A stretch of DNA of 64,000 bases from Marinococcus halotolerans DSM 16375 (GTDB lineage: Bacteria; Bacillota; Bacilli; Bacillales; Marinococcaceae), in contig NZ_ATVM01000015.1 in the NCBI RefSeq assembly GCF_000420725.1, forward strand, positions 1 through 64,000, written 5' to 3'. Of the stretch, positions 19,203-27,607 are shown one piece after another. A program made the position numbers and the translations under genes. The stretch's first letter is position 1. Each line of letters opens with the position of its first letter. Below the pieces are notes generated by a model. That model was not told the DNA's origin. It saw only the letters and a program-made list of their open reading frames with translations, and did not search any database.

Positions 19203-21626
19203 GTGAATCATCATGATTATGAAAAAAGGCTTGCTCTGCATGAGCTGTCCCCAGCAGAGCTTCGTTTGGAATTTAATGCTGAAACCTTCTCATTTGAAAC
19301 GACAGAGGACATGAATGATTTTCCGTATGAAATGATCGGACAGGAGCGGGCCGAGCGGGCCATGGAGTTTGGCCTTTCAGTAAGCCAGGCGGGGTATAAT
19401 TTATTTGTGGTCGGTCCAACGGGAACGGGGAGAATGACGTATACCCAGCACAGCGTGGAAAACCTGGCCCGGAAACAGAAGCAGCCGGATGATTGGTGCT
19501 ACGTGCATAATTTTGATAATCCGGACCGCCCGGAAGTGCTTTCATTTCAGGCCGGAGAAGGGCAGCGTTTCAGGCGCGAGGTCGAACAGCTTCTGGTAAA
19601 CATCGAGCGTGAACTAAAGACAGCGTTCTCAAGCGACAACCACGAAAGACAGAAGCGGGAAATGTTTGAGCGACTGCGTACGGAGATGGACGAGCTATGG
19701 AAAGAAACCGACCGGTTTGCCGTTCAGCATCATTTTAAACTCGAACGTATGCAGAACGGCATTAATAAAATTCCCCTTCAACGCGGTCAGCCAATGAACC
19801 GGGAGACGTATCAGCATCTGCTTGAAGCAGAAAAGGAACAGCTGAGGGCAAACGAAAAACTCGTGGAGGAAAAAGTGCAGGAAGCTCTCCGGCGTATCGC
19901 CAAAATGGAGGAAACCTTCCGCAAAGATGTGCAGATATTTATGGCAGACACAGCCTCGGCCGCAGTACAAAAGCTATTTGAGCCGCTCCGCAGCCAGTAT
20001 GGGCATTTACCGAAGGCTACGGCTTATTTAACCGCATACGAGCGGGACGTTGTAGAGCATTTTTACTTTTTCGCCGAAGGCCAGGGTGAGGAAGGTTCAG
20101 CAGGGGCGCTTGAAGGGATGAAGGAAAAACAGTATCAGCGGTATGTGGTGAATCTGCTCGTTAATAACAAGCATTTAGACGGGGCCCCGGTAATTTACGA
20201 ATCCAATCCGACGTATCACAATCTGTTTGGCAAGGTGGAATACCAGGGGCAGATTGGCAGCCTGGTAACGAATTTTACTTTCATTAAACCAGGAGCGGTG
20301 CATCTGGCGAACGGCGGCTATTTGATTCTTCAGGCTGCAGATTTACTGCAGCACCCAGGTGCATGGCCAGGGTTAAAACGGATGCTTCAGACTGGGCACG
20401 TGCATATCGAAAACTCCTATGAAGAGCGGGGGCTGCTGCCAACCAGTGCACTTAAACCGGAACCCATTCCCTTTCGGACAAAGGTTATCATTATTGGCTC
20501 TTATTACGTTTATGACCTGCTGTCGAGACTTGATGAAGAGTTTGATAAGCTGTTCAAGGTCAAAGTAGAGTTCGATACCGTCATGACCAAAAGCGATGAA
20601 AACAGCTGGAAAATGGCCGGATTCGTGAAAAATTACGTTCAGGAAGAAGGCCTGCTGCCGTTTCACCGGGAGGCTGTGGCCAGAGTGATTGACTACAGCT
20701 CCCGGTTGATAGATGAACAGGGAAAAATGACCACCAGGTTTCAAGATATTACAAAGCTGCTCGTAGAATCCAGCCACTACGCGCTGCAGGAGGGAAACGC
20801 TTACGTCAAAGCAGAGCACATCTTCCGGGCGCTTGAGGAGAAATACAGGCGTTCAAGCCATATTCCCGAACAGTACCGGGAGAAAATTCACGATGAAACA
20901 ATCATGATTCAAACGGAAGGCTACAGGGTCGGACAGATTAACGGCTTGGCTGTGATGGGAACAAGAGATTCCATGTTTGGCATTCCAACGAAAATTACGG
21001 CTCAGACGTATGTCGGGAAAAGCGGGTTGATGAACATTGAGCGAGAAACGTCTCTCAGCGGCCAGATTCATCATAAGGGCATGATGATTTTGACCGGCTT
21101 TCTTTCCGGCCAGTTTGCTAAAAACCGTCCTATTCCTTTATCGGCGAGCATCACTTTTGAGCAGACCTACAGTCTGATCGACGGCGACAGCGCCTCAAGC
21201 ACAGAGCTGTACGTGCTGCTTTCCTCTTTGGCAGAAGTGCCTATTTACCAGGGCATAGCAGTAACCGGATCGGTCAATCAGTGGGGAGAGATCCAGCCGA
21301 TTGGAGGTGTAAATGAAAAGATCGAGGGATTCTTTCACATTTGCCGGGAAAAAGGGCTGACCGGCAGACAGGGGGTAATTATCCCGAAGCAGAATGCCCG
21401 TAATTTAATGCTCGCTCGAGAGGTTGTGGAAGCGGCGGAAGCAGGCAGCTTCCATGTATGGGCAGTCGGCCATATTTCGGAAGGTATGGAAATCCTGACA
21501 GGTGAACGGGCGGGAGCCGTACGCCGCGAGGACGGTACGTATCCGGAGGGTTCGGTATTTGCACGCACAGAAGCCCGTTTTAACCGCATGTATGAAATGG
21601 AAATCCGACAGCAGGGCATGGAATAA
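19203..21626 (+). CDS. ATP-dependent protease of the LonC/AAA_32 type
   Basis: Cytoplasmic Lon-like protease of 807 residues. An AAA_32-type N-terminal region carries a P-loop variant GPTGTGR (71-77) in which the usual Lys is Arg77. A helical insert (about 140-290) follows, then the remaining ATPase part with sensor-like FRTKVIIIGSYYVYDLL, and the Lon protease domain (about 580-790). The catalytic dyad is visible as Ser663 (DGDSAS) and Lys706 (NEKIEGF). The altered P-loop suggests weak or no ATP hydrolysis, as reported for LonC proteins. Start GTG follows AAAGGAGGGG. It is a single gene. Substrates are unknown. Confidence 0.86.
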   Translation: MNHHDYEKRLALHELSPAELRLEFNAETFSFETTEDMNDFPYEMIGQERAERAMEFGLSVSQAGYNLFVVGPTGTGRMTYTQHSVENLARKQKQPDDWCYVHNFDNPDRPEVLSFQAGEGQRFRREVEQLLVNIERELKTAFSSDNHERQKREMFERLRTEMDELWKETDRFAVQHHFKLERMQNGINKIPLQRGQPMNRETYQHLLEAEKEQLRANEKLVEEKVQEALRRIAKMEETFRKDVQIFMADTASAAVQKLFEPLRSQYGHLPKATAYLTAYERDVVEHFYFFAEGQGEEGSAGALEGMKEKQYQRYVVNLLVNNKHLDGAPVIYESNPTYHNLFGKVEYQGQIGSLVTNFTFIKPGAVHLANGGYLILQAADLLQHPGAWPGLKRMLQTGHVHIENSYEERGLLPTSALKPEPIPFRTKVIIIGSYYVYDLLSRLDEEFDKLFKVKVEFDTVMTKSDENSWKMAGFVKNYVQEEGLLPFHREAVARVIDYSSRLIDEQGKMTTRFQDITKLLVESSHYALQEGNAYVKAEHIFRALEEKYRRSSHIPEQYREKIHDETIMIQTEGYRVGQINGLAVMGTRDSMFGIPTKITAQTYVGKSGLMNIERETSLSGQIHHKGMMILTGFLSGQFAKNRPIPLSASITFEQTYSLIDGDSASSTELYVLLSSLAEVPIYQGIAVTGSVNQWGEIQPIGGVNEKIEGFFHICREKGLTGRQGVIIPKQNARNLMLAREVVEAAEAGSFHVWAVGHISEGMEILTGERAGAVRREDGTYPEGSVFARTEARFNRMYEMEIRQQGME

Positions 21627-21688: not shown

Positions 21689-21717
21689 TTGACTTTTTAT
21701 GTATGCGATTTCATAAT
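21689..21717 (+). promoter_or_regulatory. Promoter of the LacI-type regulator
   Basis: TTGACT (21689-21694) and CATAAT (21712-21717) with a 17-base spacer, followed by the operator palindrome at 21732. Confidence 0.65.
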
Positions 21718-21731
21718 AAAACCAAGTTACC

Positions 21732-21747
21732 GTGAATACGTATTCAC
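21732..21747. promoter_or_regulatory. Operator of LacI-type regulator (site 1)
   Basis: GTGAATACGTATTCAC is a perfect 16-base palindrome with a central CG, the form typical of LacI-family operators. It lies downstream of the regulator promoter, suited to autorepression. A second copy is at 22799. Confidence 0.8.
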
Positions 21748-21760
21748 CAGGAGTTAAAAA

Positions 21761-22774
21761 ATGATCTCTTCCAAAGAAGTTGCCAGAGAAGCAGGAGTAT
21801 CCCAGTCGACAGTGTCCAGGGTGCTGAATAATTCAAACAGGGTAAGCAAGGAAAACGTAGCAAAAGTCACAGAAGCGATGAGAAAGTTAAACTACAGACC
21901 CAACGCTATAGCGAGGTCTTTAGTCAGTAAGCGTTCCAAAACCATAGCGCTTATATCAGGACCGTTGCATAACCCCTTTTTTGTGGAAACTACGTCATCT
22001 ATTGTGAACTACGCCAAAGAAAAGGGGTACAACACAAACGTTTTTTTTGAAAACAATGGAGACAATATGGCTGTATATGAAACGGTTCTCTCCATGCAGG
22101 TGGACGGTATTATTTTATCTTCGGTCTTCATGGATGATCCTATCCTACAGGAATTACAGACGTCTCAAATACCTTATGTAATGTTTAACCGTAAGCATAA
22201 CGAAGGTGGGAATTTTGTTGAGTTAAATAATTATCAGGCTGGGAAAATGGCTGCGGACCATTTGTATCAGCTCGGGCACAAGCATATCGGCTTTATTGGA
22301 GGGCCGATGTATACATCCACTTTTTACGGCCGGTATTTAGGGTTTACGGAAGGAATAGCGGAACAAACCATGGAAACTGGTAAAGTTTTTTTAAACGAAA
22401 CGGACACTAGTGAAGAAGCAATAGCAGATGCCATTTTTAAAATGATGGGACGCAAAGAACGTCCTACAGCAGTGTTTGCTGCCACGGATGCTATAGCTAT
22501 TACTGCCATGGATACACTCATGGAGCTCGGCTACCGGGTCCCTGAAGATATTAGTATTTGCGGGGTGGACAATGTACGAATGGCCCGGCATCATGCGTTT
22601 GAATTAACCACTATCGGCGCCCAGTCCAACAAAAACTTAGGCAGGCTTGGAATTGAACACCTTATTAATTCCATTGAAGCCGGGAAAGAAAATATGTCCC
22701 CGATCCAGGTTACCCTGGAACCTGCGCTGTATCAAAGAAAAACGACGGGACCTTTTAAACCAGGCTCAGTATAA
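21761..22774 (+). CDS. LacI family transcriptional repressor
   Basis: DNA-binding repressor of 337 residues. The N-terminal LacI helix-turn-helix (SSKEVAREAGVSQSTVSRVLNN, 3-24) and hinge helix (YRPNAIARSLVSKRS, about 45-60) are standard, followed by a periplasmic-binding-protein-like ligand domain (SKTIALISGPLHNPF..., HIGFIGGP, AVFAATDAIAITAM, ISICGVDN). Two near-identical palindromes flank the gene, and the one downstream precedes an aldehyde dehydrogenase operon, so it probably represses both. The ligand is unknown: members often bind sugars, but none of the downstream enzymes is a sugar hydrolase or kinase. Confidence 0.9.
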   Translation: MISSKEVAREAGVSQSTVSRVLNNSNRVSKENVAKVTEAMRKLNYRPNAIARSLVSKRSKTIALISGPLHNPFFVETTSSIVNYAKEKGYNTNVFFENNGDNMAVYETVLSMQVDGIILSSVFMDDPILQELQTSQIPYVMFNRKHNEGGNFVELNNYQAGKMAADHLYQLGHKHIGFIGGPMYTSTFYGRYLGFTEGIAEQTMETGKVFLNETDTSEEAIADAIFKMMGRKERPTAVFAATDAIAITAMDTLMELGYRVPEDISICGVDNVRMARHHAFELTTIGAQSNKNLGRLGIEHLINSIEAGKENMSPIQVTLEPALYQRKTTGPFKPGSV

Positions 22775-22798: not shown

Positions 22799-22814
22799 GA
22801 GAATACGTATTCAC
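22799..22814. promoter_or_regulatory. Operator of LacI-type regulator (site 2)
   Basis: GAGAATACGTATTCAC differs from site 1 at one position and keeps the 12-base core GAATACGTATTC. It lies 24 bases before the aldehyde dehydrogenase start codon. Confidence 0.78.
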
Positions 22815-22837
22815 AAATATTGTTAGGAGGATGAAGG

Positions 22838-24265
22838 ATGAAAAAGGGTTTGTTTTTATCAGGAGAGGAGAAGGCGGCTGCAAATTACTATTCAGTTTTT
22901 AATCCCCATACGGAAGGTTTGATTGGAGAAGCAGCTGACGGCACCCCGTCCGAGATGAGTGAAGCAATCGAAAAAGCAGATGAAGCCTACAAAAAAATGA
23001 AAACGTTAACATCAAACGAAAAAGCTGGGATTTTATCCCGAGCTGCAACGATTCTGCGGGATAGGAAGGAGGAAGCTGCGCGAATTATCTCTCAGGAAGC
23101 CTGTAAGCCGGTAACTGCTGCCCGCACAGAAGTCCAGCGGACCGTGCAGACTCTGCAATTTTCAGGCGAAGAAACCAAGAGAATGAACGGGGAATACTTA
23201 CAATTAGACGCTGCTGAAGGCGGCGAAGGGCGGGATGCTTATACACTTCATGAATCAATCGGAGTGGTTGGAGCAATTACTCCTTTTAATTTTCCATTAA
23301 ATCTTGTTACTCATAAGGTCGGCCCGGCAATAGCGGCAGGAAATACTATCGTGGTTAAACCTGCGGAGCAAACTCCTTTTTCAAGCCTGCTCCTGGCAGA
23401 GATATTAAGTGAAGCAGGTCTTCACCCGGGGGCAATAGCCATAGTTCCTGGAGATGGAAAAACGCTGGGAGAGGTAATGCTTAAGGATGAACGGATTAAA
23501 AAAATATCTTTTACCGGCAGCCCCGAAGTAGGAAAGCTGCTCAAAGCAGAAGCCGGCCTGAAAAAAATGACTCTTGAATTAGGAAGCAACTCGCCGATGT
23601 ATGTGGATCAATCATGTCGCGGGGAAGTGAGTGAAGTGGCTGAGAAATCAGTTAAAGGAGCGTTCGCTTATAACGGCCAGGTTTGTTTAAGTACACAGCG
23701 CATTTATGTGCATGAAGAAATTTTTGATGATTTTATCCAAGAGTGCTCAGAAAAAACTGCCCGGCTTCAATTCGGAGACCCTTTGGAAGAAAGTACGGAG
23801 GTTTCGAGCCTGATTAATAAAAAATCACAGCAGCGCCTGTATGAATGGATTAAAGAAGCAAAAGCAGAGGGAGCAGAGGTTCTGGCAGGAGGAGAAAAAG
23901 TTGGTAATGGTCTAGAGCCAACGATTTTATCCAATGTTTCTTCTACATCCTCTATATCCTGCAAAGAAGCTTTTGGGCCGGTGGTGATCATCAACAAAGT
24001 AAAAAGCTCTGAAGAAGCTCTGGAACAAATGAATAACAGCCGGTTCGGCCTGAATGCGGGAGTGTTTACAAATGATCTGAAACAGGCTGTTGATATGGCA
24101 CATCGCATAGAAGCCGGGCAGGTTCTCATTAACGATGTCCCTACTCTCCGTTTCGACCATATGCCTTACGGGGGAGTGAAGGATTCCGGCTATGGAAGGG
24201 AAGGGGTAAAATATGCTATCGAAGAAATGACGGAATTAAAAATGATAAGTATAAAATACCGTTAA
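22838..24265 (+). CDS. Aldehyde dehydrogenase family protein
   Basis: NAD(P)-dependent oxidation of an aldehyde to an acid. The 475 residues contain ITPFNFPLN (substrate channel), the cofactor motif FTGSPEVGK, the general base Glu in LELGSNSP and the catalytic Cys in NGQVCLSTQR. The overall pattern resembles the group of succinate-semialdehyde, lactaldehyde and phosphonoacetaldehyde dehydrogenases rather than betaine aldehyde enzymes. It is first in an operon with an iron-type alcohol dehydrogenase, which could supply its aldehyde, and a sodium symporter. A LacI operator lies directly upstream. TTAGGAGGATGA precedes ATG. Confidence 0.88.
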   Translation: MKKGLFLSGEEKAAANYYSVFNPHTEGLIGEAADGTPSEMSEAIEKADEAYKKMKTLTSNEKAGILSRAATILRDRKEEAARIISQEACKPVTAARTEVQRTVQTLQFSGEETKRMNGEYLQLDAAEGGEGRDAYTLHESIGVVGAITPFNFPLNLVTHKVGPAIAAGNTIVVKPAEQTPFSSLLLAEILSEAGLHPGAIAIVPGDGKTLGEVMLKDERIKKISFTGSPEVGKLLKAEAGLKKMTLELGSNSPMYVDQSCRGEVSEVAEKSVKGAFAYNGQVCLSTQRIYVHEEIFDDFIQECSEKTARLQFGDPLEESTEVSSLINKKSQQRLYEWIKEAKAEGAEVLAGGEKVGNGLEPTILSNVSSTSSISCKEAFGPVVIINKVKSSEEALEQMNNSRFGLNAGVFTNDLKQAVDMAHRIEAGQVLINDVPTLRFDHMPYGGVKDSGYGREGVKYAIEEMTELKMISIKYR

Positions 24266-24277
24266 GGAGAGAGTAGT

Positions 24278-24760
24278 ATGCAAATACAGACAATGAGGGG
24301 AAAGAAAAAAGAGTATTTGTTTACTTGTTATTATCCTAAGTACGCAGCCGAATGGATCGTAACGTTTCAGACACTATTTGGCGAACGAACAGAAAAAATT
24401 ATTACCGCTGGAGACGGGATAACAAATCAGCAGGGAATCATAGATGGTCTGCCGGTCTGTGAAACTATCGAAGTACAGAACGAAGCGATTATTCCTTATG
24501 AAATCGAGAAGCAGGAATTTCAGGAGCAGGGAAAAGAGACATTAAGAAAATACTTTTTATATCAACGCCGTTCCTGGAAGGTTCCTGTGGTAAAACGGGA
24601 GAAGACGTATGTTTTTTATGCTCCTTATCAAATTGAAAATGCAAAAAAACTTAACAGCAATAAAGTGAAGGTCATGTTATATGAAGTGAGTTCAGAATCT
24701 TACGATAAATTAGAAAAATTTCCTATTATCCATCAATTTTATCAAGAAAGGGGAGAATAG
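24278..24760 (+). CDS. Unknown protein within the LacI operon
   Basis: I do not recognise this 160-residue soluble protein. It is rich in Lys, Glu and aromatic residues (KKEYLFTCYYPKYAAEW, KYFLYQRRSWKVPV), has two Cys (about residues 17 and 67) and no membrane segment or known nucleotide motif. It begins 12 bases after the aldehyde dehydrogenase gene (AAGGAGAGAG before ATG) and ends one base before a 32-codon gene, so it is firmly within the operon. A role in the substrate's metabolism or in the transport step is inferred from position only. Confidence 0.65.
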   Translation: MQIQTMRGKKKEYLFTCYYPKYAAEWIVTFQTLFGERTEKIITAGDGITNQQGIIDGLPVCETIEVQNEAIIPYEIEKQEFQEQGKETLRKYFLYQRRSWKVPVVKREKTYVFYAPYQIENAKKLNSNKVKVMLYEVSSESYDKLEKFPIIHQFYQERGE

Positions 24761-24761
24761 A

Positions 24762-24860
24762 ATGAACTTCCTAATAATTATGGCTGTTTGTATAGTTGGC
24801 ACCTGGGCTGGAATGGCACTGACACTTTGGAAAACAAATATTCTAAAGGAAAAAGAATAG
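24762..24860 (+). CDS. 32-residue membrane peptide ahead of a sodium symporter
   Basis: A short gene of 33 codons, encoding a peptide that begins MNFLIIMAVCIVGTWAGMAL and ends KTNILKEKE. It has one hydrophobic helix (about residues 3-23) followed by a basic and charged tail. AAGGGGAGAAT precedes its ATG, and the stop is 9 bases before the start of the Na+:solute symporter gene, which has its own GGGGG site. Very small proteins encoded next to symporters of this family occur elsewhere and may act as accessory subunits; here that is inferred from position and shape. Confidence 0.7.
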   Translation: MNFLIIMAVCIVGTWAGMALTLWKTNILKEKE

Positions 24861-24869
24861 GGGGATTCT

Positions 24870-26393
24870 ATGAATACACAAATTGTAACCTATTCCTGGA
24901 TTTTTATGGGCTTATTTATACTAATGATGCTTTATTTCGGCTGGGTCGGGATGAAAAGAACGAAAACGTCAGAGGATTTTGCTACCGCAAGGTCAAGCTA
25001 CAGCCCCCTGGTAATCGCCTTAGTAATTGCAGCAGGTATATCCAGTGGCTCCACATTTATGGGCATGCCGGGGCTTGCTTACAGTATCGGGACCCCGAGT
25101 CTCTGGTATCCGCTTCTTTACCCTATAGCTACTGTTATTGGTATGCTTTTTGTAGCTAAGGTTATAAAGAAATATGGCGATGAATTCGGTACAAGAACGA
25201 TTCCGGAATTTATAGGCGAAAGATACAAAAGTGATTTCCTGCGCATTGCATTAACGATTATTTCCATTTTGCTTATCTTTTACGTCGTTTCTCAATTTGT
25301 TGCTGCTGCAACAATGTTTCAAACTATGATGGGCGTTGATTACGGAGTTGGTTTAATTATCACAGCAGCAGTACTTGCTGTGTATGTCTTTATGGGAGGA
25401 TCGCACTCAGATATTATTACCGATGCTGTACAGGGACTTTTAATGCTGATAGTAGCCATTACAGTATTTGTTTGCTTTATGACGAGCGTTGGCGTCAATG
25501 GTGGCTTTACCGATATGCTGAACACAGTGAGTAATGAAAATCCTCAGGGCGGCTTTAATCAATTGTTTCTTCCCGGTGATAATACGTACGGAGCTTTTTG
25601 GCTTGTAGCCTTACTATTTGTAGCTCACTTACCTTTTTCCGTGCAGCCGCACCTTGGTAACAAATTTATGGCTGTAAAAGGCAGTAAAGATATTAGAAAG
25701 CTGATTATGTATTGTACTATTTTTGCTACAATCCTGCCTTTAATGGCGTTGGGCGGAATGCTTGGAGTGGCCGTAGTCGGTGCAGACGCAGGTATTAGTC
25801 CTGACCAGATAATTCCAGTCCTTTTCAGTGAAATATTCCCGCCAGTAATTGCAGCATTTCTGGCAATAGCTGTGCTGTCTGCTGTAATGTCGACTTCAGA
25901 CGGCCTGATAGTATCACTGACCCAGCTGCTCGCTAACGATCTGTATCGCAAAACAATTGTACCCAGAATTAATATTTCAAAAGCAAAAGCGGAACGAAAT
26001 GAATTAATCATCAGTCGTTACAGTACGTTTTTAGTGATAATTGCAGCAATATTTTTCGCCTGGTCCCCGCCGGAATTCCTAGCGGTTTTCATGTGGATTG
26101 GCATTGGAGGCATCATGGCGGCTACTGCAGGCCCTATCGTAGTTGGTGGTATATGGGACCGCGCAAACAAAACAGCGGCTATTTCCTCTTTAATAGCAGC
26201 AACAGTTGTTTATTGGTTCGTGTATCTGCCAATCGGCCTTAATTTTTCGAATCCATTTGGAGCCGCCGGTATTGGAGTCATTGTCGGTATGTTAACAATG
26301 TATATTGTAACCATAGCTACTACCGAATCTCCAAAGGAGAGCGGCTTAGATATAAAGCAGAAACCAAATGCAAGGAGTGGAAAAAATGTATAA
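24870..26393 (+). CDS. Sodium:solute symporter (SSS family)
   Basis: Membrane transporter that couples substrate uptake to sodium. The 507 residues have about thirteen helices. GISSGSTFMGMPGLAYSIGTPSLWY, in the first helices, and VLSAVMSTSDGLIVSLTQLLANDLY, the typical helix 8 Na+-site signature of the family, are clear. The sequence resembles the pantothenate, proline and carboxylate branch, but the substrate cannot be assigned. A 32-residue membrane peptide precedes it and an alcohol dehydrogenase gene overlaps its end by 8 bases, so its substrate is most likely an alcohol or hydroxy acid oxidised by the neighbouring enzymes. Confidence 0.9.
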   Translation: MNTQIVTYSWIFMGLFILMMLYFGWVGMKRTKTSEDFATARSSYSPLVIALVIAAGISSGSTFMGMPGLAYSIGTPSLWYPLLYPIATVIGMLFVAKVIKKYGDEFGTRTIPEFIGERYKSDFLRIALTIISILLIFYVVSQFVAAATMFQTMMGVDYGVGLIITAAVLAVYVFMGGSHSDIITDAVQGLLMLIVAITVFVCFMTSVGVNGGFTDMLNTVSNENPQGGFNQLFLPGDNTYGAFWLVALLFVAHLPFSVQPHLGNKFMAVKGSKDIRKLIMYCTIFATILPLMALGGMLGVAVVGADAGISPDQIIPVLFSEIFPPVIAAFLAIAVLSAVMSTSDGLIVSLTQLLANDLYRKTIVPRINISKAKAERNELIISRYSTFLVIIAAIFFAWSPPEFLAVFMWIGIGGIMAATAGPIVVGGIWDRANKTAAISSLIAATVVYWFVYLPIGLNFSNPFGAAGIGVIVGMLTMYIVTIATTESPKESGLDIKQKPNARSGKNV

Positions 26394-27564
26394 ATCGTTT
26401 GTTTCCCCAATCAGAATTGTTTCAGGTGAAGGAGCAGTAAATGAAATACCAGCTTTACTGAAGTCCTATCAGGCAGAGCGGGTGATGGTATTTGCTGACC
26501 CCGGGGTGGTGGATGCCGGCATTGTTTCCCCTCTAGAAGACCAGTTAAAAGAGGCCGGAGTAATATACGAAATATATTCCGATCTAAAGCCGGAACCGCC
26601 TGTAGAAATTGGTAAGAATGCCCTGGAGGCATTAAAATCATTTGATGCAGATTTTGTTATCGGAATTGGAGGAGGAAGCTCCCTTGATATCGCAAAGGCA
26701 GTTTCTGTATTGCACGGAAACGAAGGGTCCATTGAGAATTATTTAAACCTTTCAGGAGATAAATCTCTTGCAAATAGAGGTCTGCCAAAGCTTTTAATAC
26801 CAACAACCGCCGGTACGGGGGCAGAAGTTACAGATATAAGTGTATTTTCGCTCGAAGGCACCAAAGACGTTATCACCCATGAATTTTTATTGGCAGATGC
26901 TGCCGTGGTGGATCCGGATTTAACTATGACGGTACCGCCTAAGGTTACTGCTGCTACGGGAGTGGATGCTCTTACTCATGCAGTAGAAGCATATATTTCT
27001 GTTAACAGCACTCCGCTGACCGATGCGCTCGCTTTGGACGCAATGGAAAGAATAGCAAAAAATATTCGTACAGCTGTATGGAATGGAAGCGATAAAGAAG
27101 CACGTGCACAAATGAGCTGGGGAAGCATGACTGCAGGGCTTAGTTTCTATAACGCAGGTGTTGCCGGCGTGCATGCTTTAGCCTATCCATTAGGCGGGCT
27201 ATTTAAGATATCTCATGGCGAATCCAATGCTGTACTTCTGCCTTACATTTTTGATTACATCTGGCCTTCCTGCATGAAAAAGATGGGCACAATAGCAGAG
27301 CGTATAGGGGCAAATACTGAAGGGTTATCAGCCAGGGAAGCTGCGATCGCAGGAGTGCGGGAGTTAAAAAACATTGTTGAGGATGTAGGTATTCCTTCTA
27401 CATTGGGGCAGTTCGGAATTAAAGAAAGCGATCTCGTGAAATTGGCTGAAAGCGGCGAAAAGCAGACAAGGCTTTTAGCAAGAAGTCCGAAGCCATATTC
27501 TTATCAGGATATTTTAGAAAGGTATGAAGCGGCTTATGCAGGCACTTTAGAAATTAATAAGTAA
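26386..27564 (+). CDS. Iron-containing alcohol dehydrogenase
   Basis: NAD(P)-dependent group III alcohol dehydrogenase of 392 residues. GIGGGSSLDIAKAVSV binds the cofactor, PTTAGTGAEVTDISVF is the family signature, and metal ligands lie in DALTHAVEAYIS, GVAGVHALAYPLG and KISHGESNAVLLPY. It likely oxidises a primary or secondary alcohol to the aldehyde used by the dehydrogenase at the head of the operon. Start: ATG at 26386 follows AAGGAGTGG and overlaps the end of the symporter gene by 8 bases; the longer reading from 26368 would place that site inside the coding region. Confidence 0.9.
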   Translation: MYKSFVSPIRIVSGEGAVNEIPALLKSYQAERVMVFADPGVVDAGIVSPLEDQLKEAGVIYEIYSDLKPEPPVEIGKNALEALKSFDADFVIGIGGGSSLDIAKAVSVLHGNEGSIENYLNLSGDKSLANRGLPKLLIPTTAGTGAEVTDISVFSLEGTKDVITHEFLLADAAVVDPDLTMTVPPKVTAATGVDALTHAVEAYISVNSTPLTDALALDAMERIAKNIRTAVWNGSDKEARAQMSWGSMTAGLSFYNAGVAGVHALAYPLGGLFKISHGESNAVLLPYIFDYIWPSCMKKMGTIAERIGANTEGLSAREAAIAGVRELKNIVEDVGIPSTLGQFGIKESDLVKLAESGEKQTRLLARSPKPYSYQDILERYEAAYAGTLEINK

Positions 27565-27565
27565 A

Positions 27566-27607
27566 TAAAAAAGGCCCTGTTCTTATAAAAGAACGGGCCT
27601 CTATTTT
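27566..27607. terminator. Bidirectional terminator
   Basis: AGGCCCTGTTCTT-ATAA-AAGAACGGGCCT with A and T tracts on its two sides. It ends the LacI operon and the convergent siderophore-binding gene. Confidence 0.9.

Follow-up and report, generated by a model that had tools for sequence, protein, structure and literature searches.

Symporters of the sodium:solute symporter family (SSF) have mostly been studied as single polypeptides, a few of them paired with a small membrane protein, as in YjcH-ActP and YhdT-PanF. A 2021 review of these symporters that nowhere in its main text uses the terms accessory, subunit or small membrane protein describes STAC, an SSF/SLC5-associated component that mostly joins symporter and sensor-kinase domains (PMC7918813). 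Among enzymes of the histidinol dehydrogenase (HisD) fold, HpsN carries the motif GRY[A/S]H, in which His126 binds the sulfonate, and the HisD counterpart is GSAPL (PMC11382572). Moss ALDH21 is a succinic semialdehyde dehydrogenase (SSADH) according to a review (PMC7823795), and a pair of arginines has been described for SSADH (PMC10599462). Here we analyse a window of 64,000 nucleotides, positions 1 to 64,000 of contig NZ_ATVM01000015.1 of Marinococcus halotolerans DSM 16375, which contains an operon encoding a LacI-family repressor, two dehydrogenases, an SSF symporter and two small proteins, unk160 and pep32. We propose, with a probability of roughly 0.55, that this operon serves the uptake and first oxidation of a small hydroxy acid within a regulon of the LacI repressor.

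A six-gene operon

The genes and predicted control elements of the operon are arranged as follows (window coordinates):

21761..22774, + strand: lacI, LacI/GalR-family repressor of 337 residues, PF00356 and PF13377 above cut-off
22838..24265, + strand: aldH, aldehyde dehydrogenase (ALDH), Aldedh Pfam domain above cut-off
24278..24760, + strand: unk160, 160 residues, an uncatalogued, probably internally duplicated family travelling with SSF symporters
24762..24860, + strand: pep32, 32 residues, probable single-span membrane peptide, conserved beside the SSF gene
24870..26393, + strand: sodium:solute symporter (SSF) of 507 residues, PF00474 at 167 bits against a cut-off of 22.8
26386..27564, + strand: iron-type alcohol dehydrogenase (Fe-ADH), Fe-ADH Pfam domain above cut-off
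21733..21746, no strand: predicted operator O1, TGAATACGTATTCA, just 3' of the lacI -10 element, conserved in relatives
22800..22813, no strand: predicted operator O2, AGAATACGTATTCA, before aldH
21689..21717, + strand: promoter-like TTGACT-N17-CATAAT 5' of lacI, 10/12 matches
27576..27597, + strand: terminator-like hairpin 3' of the Fe-ADH gene

The six genes lie on one strand, and those of the packed set behind lacI (gaps of 1-12 bases or overlaps) are all where a preliminary description of the window had placed them. The spacings from aldH to the symporter gene are 12, 1 and 9 bases, and the symporter and Fe-ADH genes overlap. The longest open reading frame of Fe-ADH begins at 26368, but the ATG at 26386, preceded by the ribosome-binding site AAGGAG, is the better start. 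The interval delimited in the preliminary description, 22799-27564, opens one base 5' of O2, an element absent from it. Terminator-like sites are more frequent in the region than in shuffled sequences (11 versus a mean of 5.9), whereas promoter-like sites are not enriched (8 versus 12.4).

A search of other genomes for the conserved gene set, as the preliminary description had suggested, recovered the full six-gene order in two loci of the same genus, L003 and L025. The unk160 protein of L003 (Marinococcus) is 96% identical to that of the window. The order aldH-unk160-pep32-SSF is present in L005, also of this genus, and partial sets recur in other genera; within the genus, unk160 occurs in genomes G012, G014 and G015 and is missing from G013. 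Since parts of the operon recur in relatives and in other genera, its arrangement is not due to chance, and the six-gene operon is confirmed. A gene for an archaeal-LonB-type protease (AAA_32 and LonB LID domains) lies 5' of lacI at window positions 19203-21626.

Operators link the operon to a distant HisD-like gene

The palindromic operator core GAATACGTATTC has three exact sites in the 3.14-Mb host genome: two precede lacI and aldH, and the third a distant gene for a HisD-like dehydrogenase. The number expected from the base composition of the window is about 0.24, and the reversed core, used as a control, has no site in this genome. None of 100 shuffles contained two operator matches with up to two mismatches. 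The HisD-like gene is on another contig (G000:C1:236815-238095), and its start is preceded by the third site at a distance of 19 bp. The gene for a short-chain dehydrogenase/reductase (SDR) 3' of the HisD-like gene is preceded by the one-mismatch site TGAATACGTATACA, and the same site is found in G014 and G012. The repressor combines a LacI helix-turn-helix domain with a periplasmic-binding-like ligand domain, and the palindromic operator with a central CG is positioned at the target genes, as is characteristic of LacI/GalR regulons. The LacI control put forward in the preliminary description is thus supported by two predicted operators at the operon and three exact sites genome-wide.

Twenty-four genomes contain 32 exact operator sites, 25 of which could be placed at the starts of lacI, aldH or HisD-like genes; the reversed control gave five sites. 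All sites were placed in G000, G012, G014 and G015 (3/3 each), in G004, G017, G008 and G022 (2/2 each) and in G007 (1/1), two of three in each of G002 and G011, and none of the five in G016, G027, G003 and G005 together. Synteny served to place the lacI site of G014, a partial gene the second G022 site and a broken HisD-like gene one G002 site. Thirty of the exact sites belong to the 15 genomes with a HisD-like gene and two to the nine genomes without it.

All ten genomes with an unk160-pep32-SSF cluster carry the HisD-like gene, which is present in 19 of the 29 genomes searched (chance of this co-occurrence 0.005, a figure that ignores relatedness). The gene adjoins the operon in L017 and L018 and, in pieces, in L022. 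In L070, L071, L080 and L102, from genomes without a close unk160, a related LacI gene (51-53% identical protein) adjoins the HisD-like gene with no symporter operon; two exact operator sites precede the HisD-like gene in L080 and L102, and L070 and L071 have one-mismatch sites. Therefore, it is the HisD-like gene that seems to be this repressor's constant target. Sequence evidence strongly supports the membership of the operon and the HisD-like gene in one predicted regulon.

Several irregularities were observed in these loci. The operon of L022 (G002) looks decayed, with unk160, the symporter gene and the adjacent HisD-like gene in pieces, and an intact HisD-like gene is located elsewhere in that genome. 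The HisD-like gene at G015:C3:471073-472340 is split over two overlapping frames, which indicates a frameshift or an assembly error. The gene for the SDR, which follows the HisD-like gene (L028:7461-8225, own contig 1; also L103 and L154), lacks an ATG, GTG or TTG where its start is expected; in three genomes of the genus, an ATC behind a good ribosome-binding site may serve as a rare start codon. A 640-residue protein, possibly a beta-helix as judged by eye, is encoded at L028:9738-11660, upstream of the HisD-like gene and in divergent orientation to an AraC-like gene.

The HisD-like dehydrogenase

When compared with solved structures, the HisD-like protein scores 395 bits with HpsN and 281 bits with histidinol dehydrogenase, and its homologue from L017, which adjoins the operon, scores 395 and at best 289 bits, respectively. 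The protein also passes the histidinol-dehydrogenase model TIGR00069 (480 bits; cut-off 244), and a further HisD homologue in the genome shares 40% identity with the L017 query. The catalytic residues Glu318, His319, Asp352 and Lys353 (HpsN numbering) are kept by alignment, the last two within the segment GDKVIGTNH. The motif of the protein, GGRYPM, which recurs in 33 of 38 proteins scanned, is distinct from those of HisD and of the sulfonate enzyme HpsN. The position of His126 is occupied by Met in 33 of the 38 proteins scanned, including that of M. halotolerans, and by Leu or Ile in the other five (one of the two proteins of L077, and L097, L098, L099 and L100).

A search across the order found HisD-like proteins with E <=1e-100 in 40 of 397 genomes. 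Among 37 clustered loci (33 from this search plus L028, L017, L018 and L019), the neighbouring genes encode a second LacI type (22 loci), GntP-like permeases (15), SDRs (15), 3-hydroxyacyl-CoA-dehydrogenase-like proteins (11), Fe-ADHs (10), sigma-54 regulators (8) and ALDHs of one cluster (6). One of these ALDHs was scored and matches CoA-acylating methylmalonate-semialdehyde dehydrogenase (627 bits; cut-off 448.5). The permeases are called GntP-like from their sequence, and no NCBIfam model matched them at a threshold of 1e-60.

The aldehyde and alcohol dehydrogenases

The preliminary description had proposed a two-step oxidation, from alcohol through aldehyde to acid. The dehydrogenase pair is present by sequence, but the scheme is incomplete, since it missed the HisD-like protein as a third oxidising enzyme and the neighbouring SDR. 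The solved structures nearest to the window ALDH are those of three bacterial ALDHs without a named substrate, which score 3 to 9 bits above the fourth best, moss ALDH21 (345 bits). L019 and L020 lack aldH; in its stead, the gene of a different ALDH, 36% identical, lies divergent to lacI, and operator-like sites occur both at the lacI end and in the space between lacI and the replacement gene. The replacement ALDH of L019 passes the SSADH cut-off (668 over 646).

Proposed pathway and alternative substrates

Beyond the operon, its operators and its associations, we infer how the repressor may act, in which direction flux may run and which substrate may be used. When inducer is lacking, the repressor would occupy the GAATACGTATTC palindromes just 3' of the lacI -10 element and in front of both aldH and the distant HisD-like gene. 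When inducer is present, the symporter, the membrane peptide pep32 and the soluble unk160 would import a small hydroxy acid. The Fe-ADH would oxidise a terminal alcohol to an aldehyde and the ALDH the aldehyde to an acid; the HisD-like enzyme would take a vicinal-diol acid to a dicarboxylic acid in a four-electron oxidation. The substrates may be 4-hydroxybutyrate, yielding succinate, and 3,4-dihydroxybutyrate, yielding malate, which is a guess that we hold with less than even confidence. The former is suggested by the Fe-ADH together with the SSADH of a relative. The latter is a purely chemical consideration: the zinc chelate geometry of HpsN and HisD, in which zinc is bound through a secondary hydroxyl or amino group plus an acid or ring group, would suit a carboxylate analogue such as 3,4-dihydroxybutyrate for conversion to malate. 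A literature search found no paper joining dihydroxybutyrate with histidinol dehydrogenase, and one on histidinol dehydrogenase in LacI-family regulons turned up a single paper, which concerns histidine regulation.

Several observations weigh against this proposal. With the SSADH model TIGR01780, the window ALDH reaches 358 bits (cut-off 646), less than with the models of lactaldehyde dehydrogenase (482/650) and sulfoacetaldehyde dehydrogenase (365/700); judged by spacing, it has His and Ala at the positions of the SSADH arginine pair. The Fe-ADH reaches 238/500 with the 4-hydroxybutyrate model and more with the choline (297/550), lactaldehyde (297/523) and sulfoacetaldehyde (294/700) models. 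Readings as choline, sulfoacetaldehyde or lactaldehyde enzymes were set aside, as every score is below its curated cut-off; the SSADH and 4-hydroxybutyrate models are likewise below theirs, so model scores do not choose among substrates. The pair of HisD-like protein and SDR would also fit 2,3-dihydroxypropanesulfonate (DHPS), and two unk160 relatives (L137 and L140, from one genus) have no symporter in their locus. Furthermore, seven exact operator sites lie away from regulon genes and may be other targets or chance occurrences:

G016:C23:84079
G027:C1:485714 and 485792
G003:C40:216315
G005:C21:3238
G011:C5:282089
G002:C1:2743492

Isethionate, a candidate of the preliminary description, is left without specific support, because the sulfoacetaldehyde models score far below cut-off (365/700 and 294/700).

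Alternatively, the Fe-ADH and ALDH may oxidise an unrelated alcohol (choline-like, propanediol or similar), with the HisD-like gene co-regulated for another reason. The top models of the Fe-ADH, choline dehydrogenase (GbsB) and lactaldehyde reductase, and that of the ALDH, lactaldehyde dehydrogenase, point in this direction, but all scores are below the curated cut-offs (297/550, 297/523 and 482/650). Choline oxidation by GbsAB is similarly not indicated by NF053866 (297/550) or the betaine aldehyde model TIGR01804 (337/669). Moreover, two relatives have a different ALDH in place of aldH, and one of these copies matches the SSADH model. We consider this explanation somewhat unlikely.

It is also conceivable, but unlikely, that the HisD-like enzyme produces tartrate by oxidation of tetronates (threonate or erythronate), with the regulon serving sugar-acid breakdown. 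A protein matching the tartrate-dehydrogenase model is encoded near the HisD-like gene in L019 (633 bits; cut-off 501). Tetronate-type genes, which we take from their sequences to encode a DUF1537 kinase and a class II aldolase, stand beside it in L094, and an epimerase-like gene (154/300) and a hydroxyacid-dehydrogenase-like gene follow it in L155. However, such neighbours occur in single loci, visual inspection showed none within the 18 kb surrounding the HisD-like gene of M. halotolerans, and the pair of Fe-ADH and ALDH would have no function in tetronate oxidation.

The conversion of DHPS to sulfolactate is a rival reading that also appears unlikely. The HisD-like protein would act as HpsN on one enantiomer, the Fe-ADH with a GabD-like ALDH on the other, and the SDR as HpsO. 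The better match to HpsN than to histidinol dehydrogenases (395 versus <=289 bits) and the retention of Lys353 and of the Arg-Tyr of the motif agree with this. Also in favour of DHPS, Xsc exceeds its cut-off in seven of 37 genomes examined, four of the nine with the operon and three of the other 28 (p 0.045), but in the four operon genomes its gene stands next to genes of aminotransferase and alanine-dehydrogenase-like type (model scores cover the aminotransferase at two loci and the alanine dehydrogenase at one, and the others were judged by eye), an arrangement that we take to be that of taurine degradation. PF04295 is found in 22 of the 37 genomes, with some frames of SuyB size. Likewise in favour of DHPS, in L155, from an operon genome, the gene after the HisD-like one best matches L-sulfolactate dehydrogenase, below cut-off (296/500), followed by ureidoglycolate (260/356). 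Published sulfolactaldehyde dehydrogenases are GabD-like, and SlaB of B. megaterium shares the His with the window ALDH (PMC10599462). A literature search joining SSADH with sulfolactaldehyde found no paper. Against DHPS, the sulfonate-binding His126 is replaced in all 38 HisD-like proteins. The M. halotolerans genome has neither a PF04295 (SuyB) match nor Xsc above cut-off, no search for CuyA having been made, and the same holds for PF04295 and Xsc in G014 of the same genus.

Unk160, pep32 and the symporter

Sodium-driven uptake, as predicted in the preliminary description, is supported by sequence, the symporter's PF00474 match being above cut-off. As a correction to that description, unk160 and pep32 track SSF genes and not the enzyme pair. 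A search with a 10-row profile found 26 unk160 matches in 24 of 397 genomes, five of them in genomes that had supplied profile rows. An SSF gene is in the same short locus for 24 of the 26, about 0.6 kb apart in L144. The neighbouring symporters are 51-100% identical to that of the window in one set and about 24-29% identical in others. Peptides resembling pep32, of 30-34 residues and one span, are present in all 15 close-clade loci examined; pep32 has a best 19-residue hydropathy of 2.2, and its only Pfam match is YesK, below cut-off (14.6 bits versus 25.2). The predicted association of both proteins with symporter genes is strong. The unk160 relatives of L137 and L140 adjoin helix-turn-helix regulator genes, as judged by eye.

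Unk160 has no Pfam or NCBIfam match. The N- and C-terminal halves of the family match each other in hhalign (score 30.1, probability 74; 30 column-shuffled controls <=13.3, with 24 of the 30 aligned rows used), and therefore unk160 is probably an internal duplication, of a YxPY...TG-like unit. Searching the PDB with the 10-row alignment gave one chance-level match to a ribosomal protein (E 0.033), and an AlphaFold prediction from two sequences was too poor for fold use (mean pLDDT 44.6). A PepSY identity was rejected: PF03413 did not match unk160, and of nine relatives scanned only that of L144 gave a score, 17.1 bits against a cut-off of 24. Unk160 had no acceptable Pfam match for a STAC domain, although whether Pfam holds a STAC model was unchecked.

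Separately from the substrate question, it is improbable that unk160 processes the substrate or acts as an enzyme of the pathway instead of as a transporter partner: although ALDH genes adjoin several unk160-symporter pairs (L128, L129, L132 and L138), unk160 stays with the symporter where aldH is absent (L019, L020) or cut to a 40-residue tail (L021), stands also beside SSF proteins only 24-29% identical to that of the window, and has no enzyme family match, relatives included.

As the preferred partner reading would have it, unk160 may represent an undescribed family of soluble duplicated-domain SSF partners that forms, with a 30-34-residue peptide, a three-part symporter, and the HisD-like protein may be a third specificity class of its fold, converting a 3,4-dihydroxy acid to a dicarboxylic acid; we advance the two jointly and tentatively. 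If true, the conserved soluble partner and one-span peptide would alter both the expression and the assay of such transporters. Because the order holds a HisD-like class with a motif of its own, proteins passing the histidinol-dehydrogenase model, as this one does, may be catabolic enzymes of a small diol acid.

Comparison with known systems

The window ALDH resembles moss ALDH21 in that its Arg101 and Arg438 align with Arg121 and Arg457 of the moss enzyme (numbering that assumes an 18-residue tag), residues whose role in ALDH21 is presumed here; it differs in being bacterial and in having three bacterial ALDHs as higher-scoring matches. The HisD-like protein passes TIGR00069 as HisD does, but it has GRYPM instead of GSAPL, the genome contains a second HisD homologue, and its gene is tied to a predicted catabolic LacI operator. 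With HpsN, the DHPS 3-dehydrogenase, it shares the HisD fold family, the catalytic Glu-His and Asp-Lys and the start of the GRY motif (PMC11382572). It departs from HpsN in the Met at the position of His126 and in a genome without a SuyB domain or Xsc above cut-off. Like STAC, unk160 is a probably soluble element associated with SSF symporters (PMC7918813; PMC9100948). Unlike STAC, it is outside Pfam and NCBIfam and has a duplicated YxPY...TG-like unit. Finally, pep32 is a short, probable membrane protein encoded beside a symporter, as are partners of the YjcH and YhdT type, but it is of a family of 30-34 residues with one span and is accompanied by a soluble third protein.

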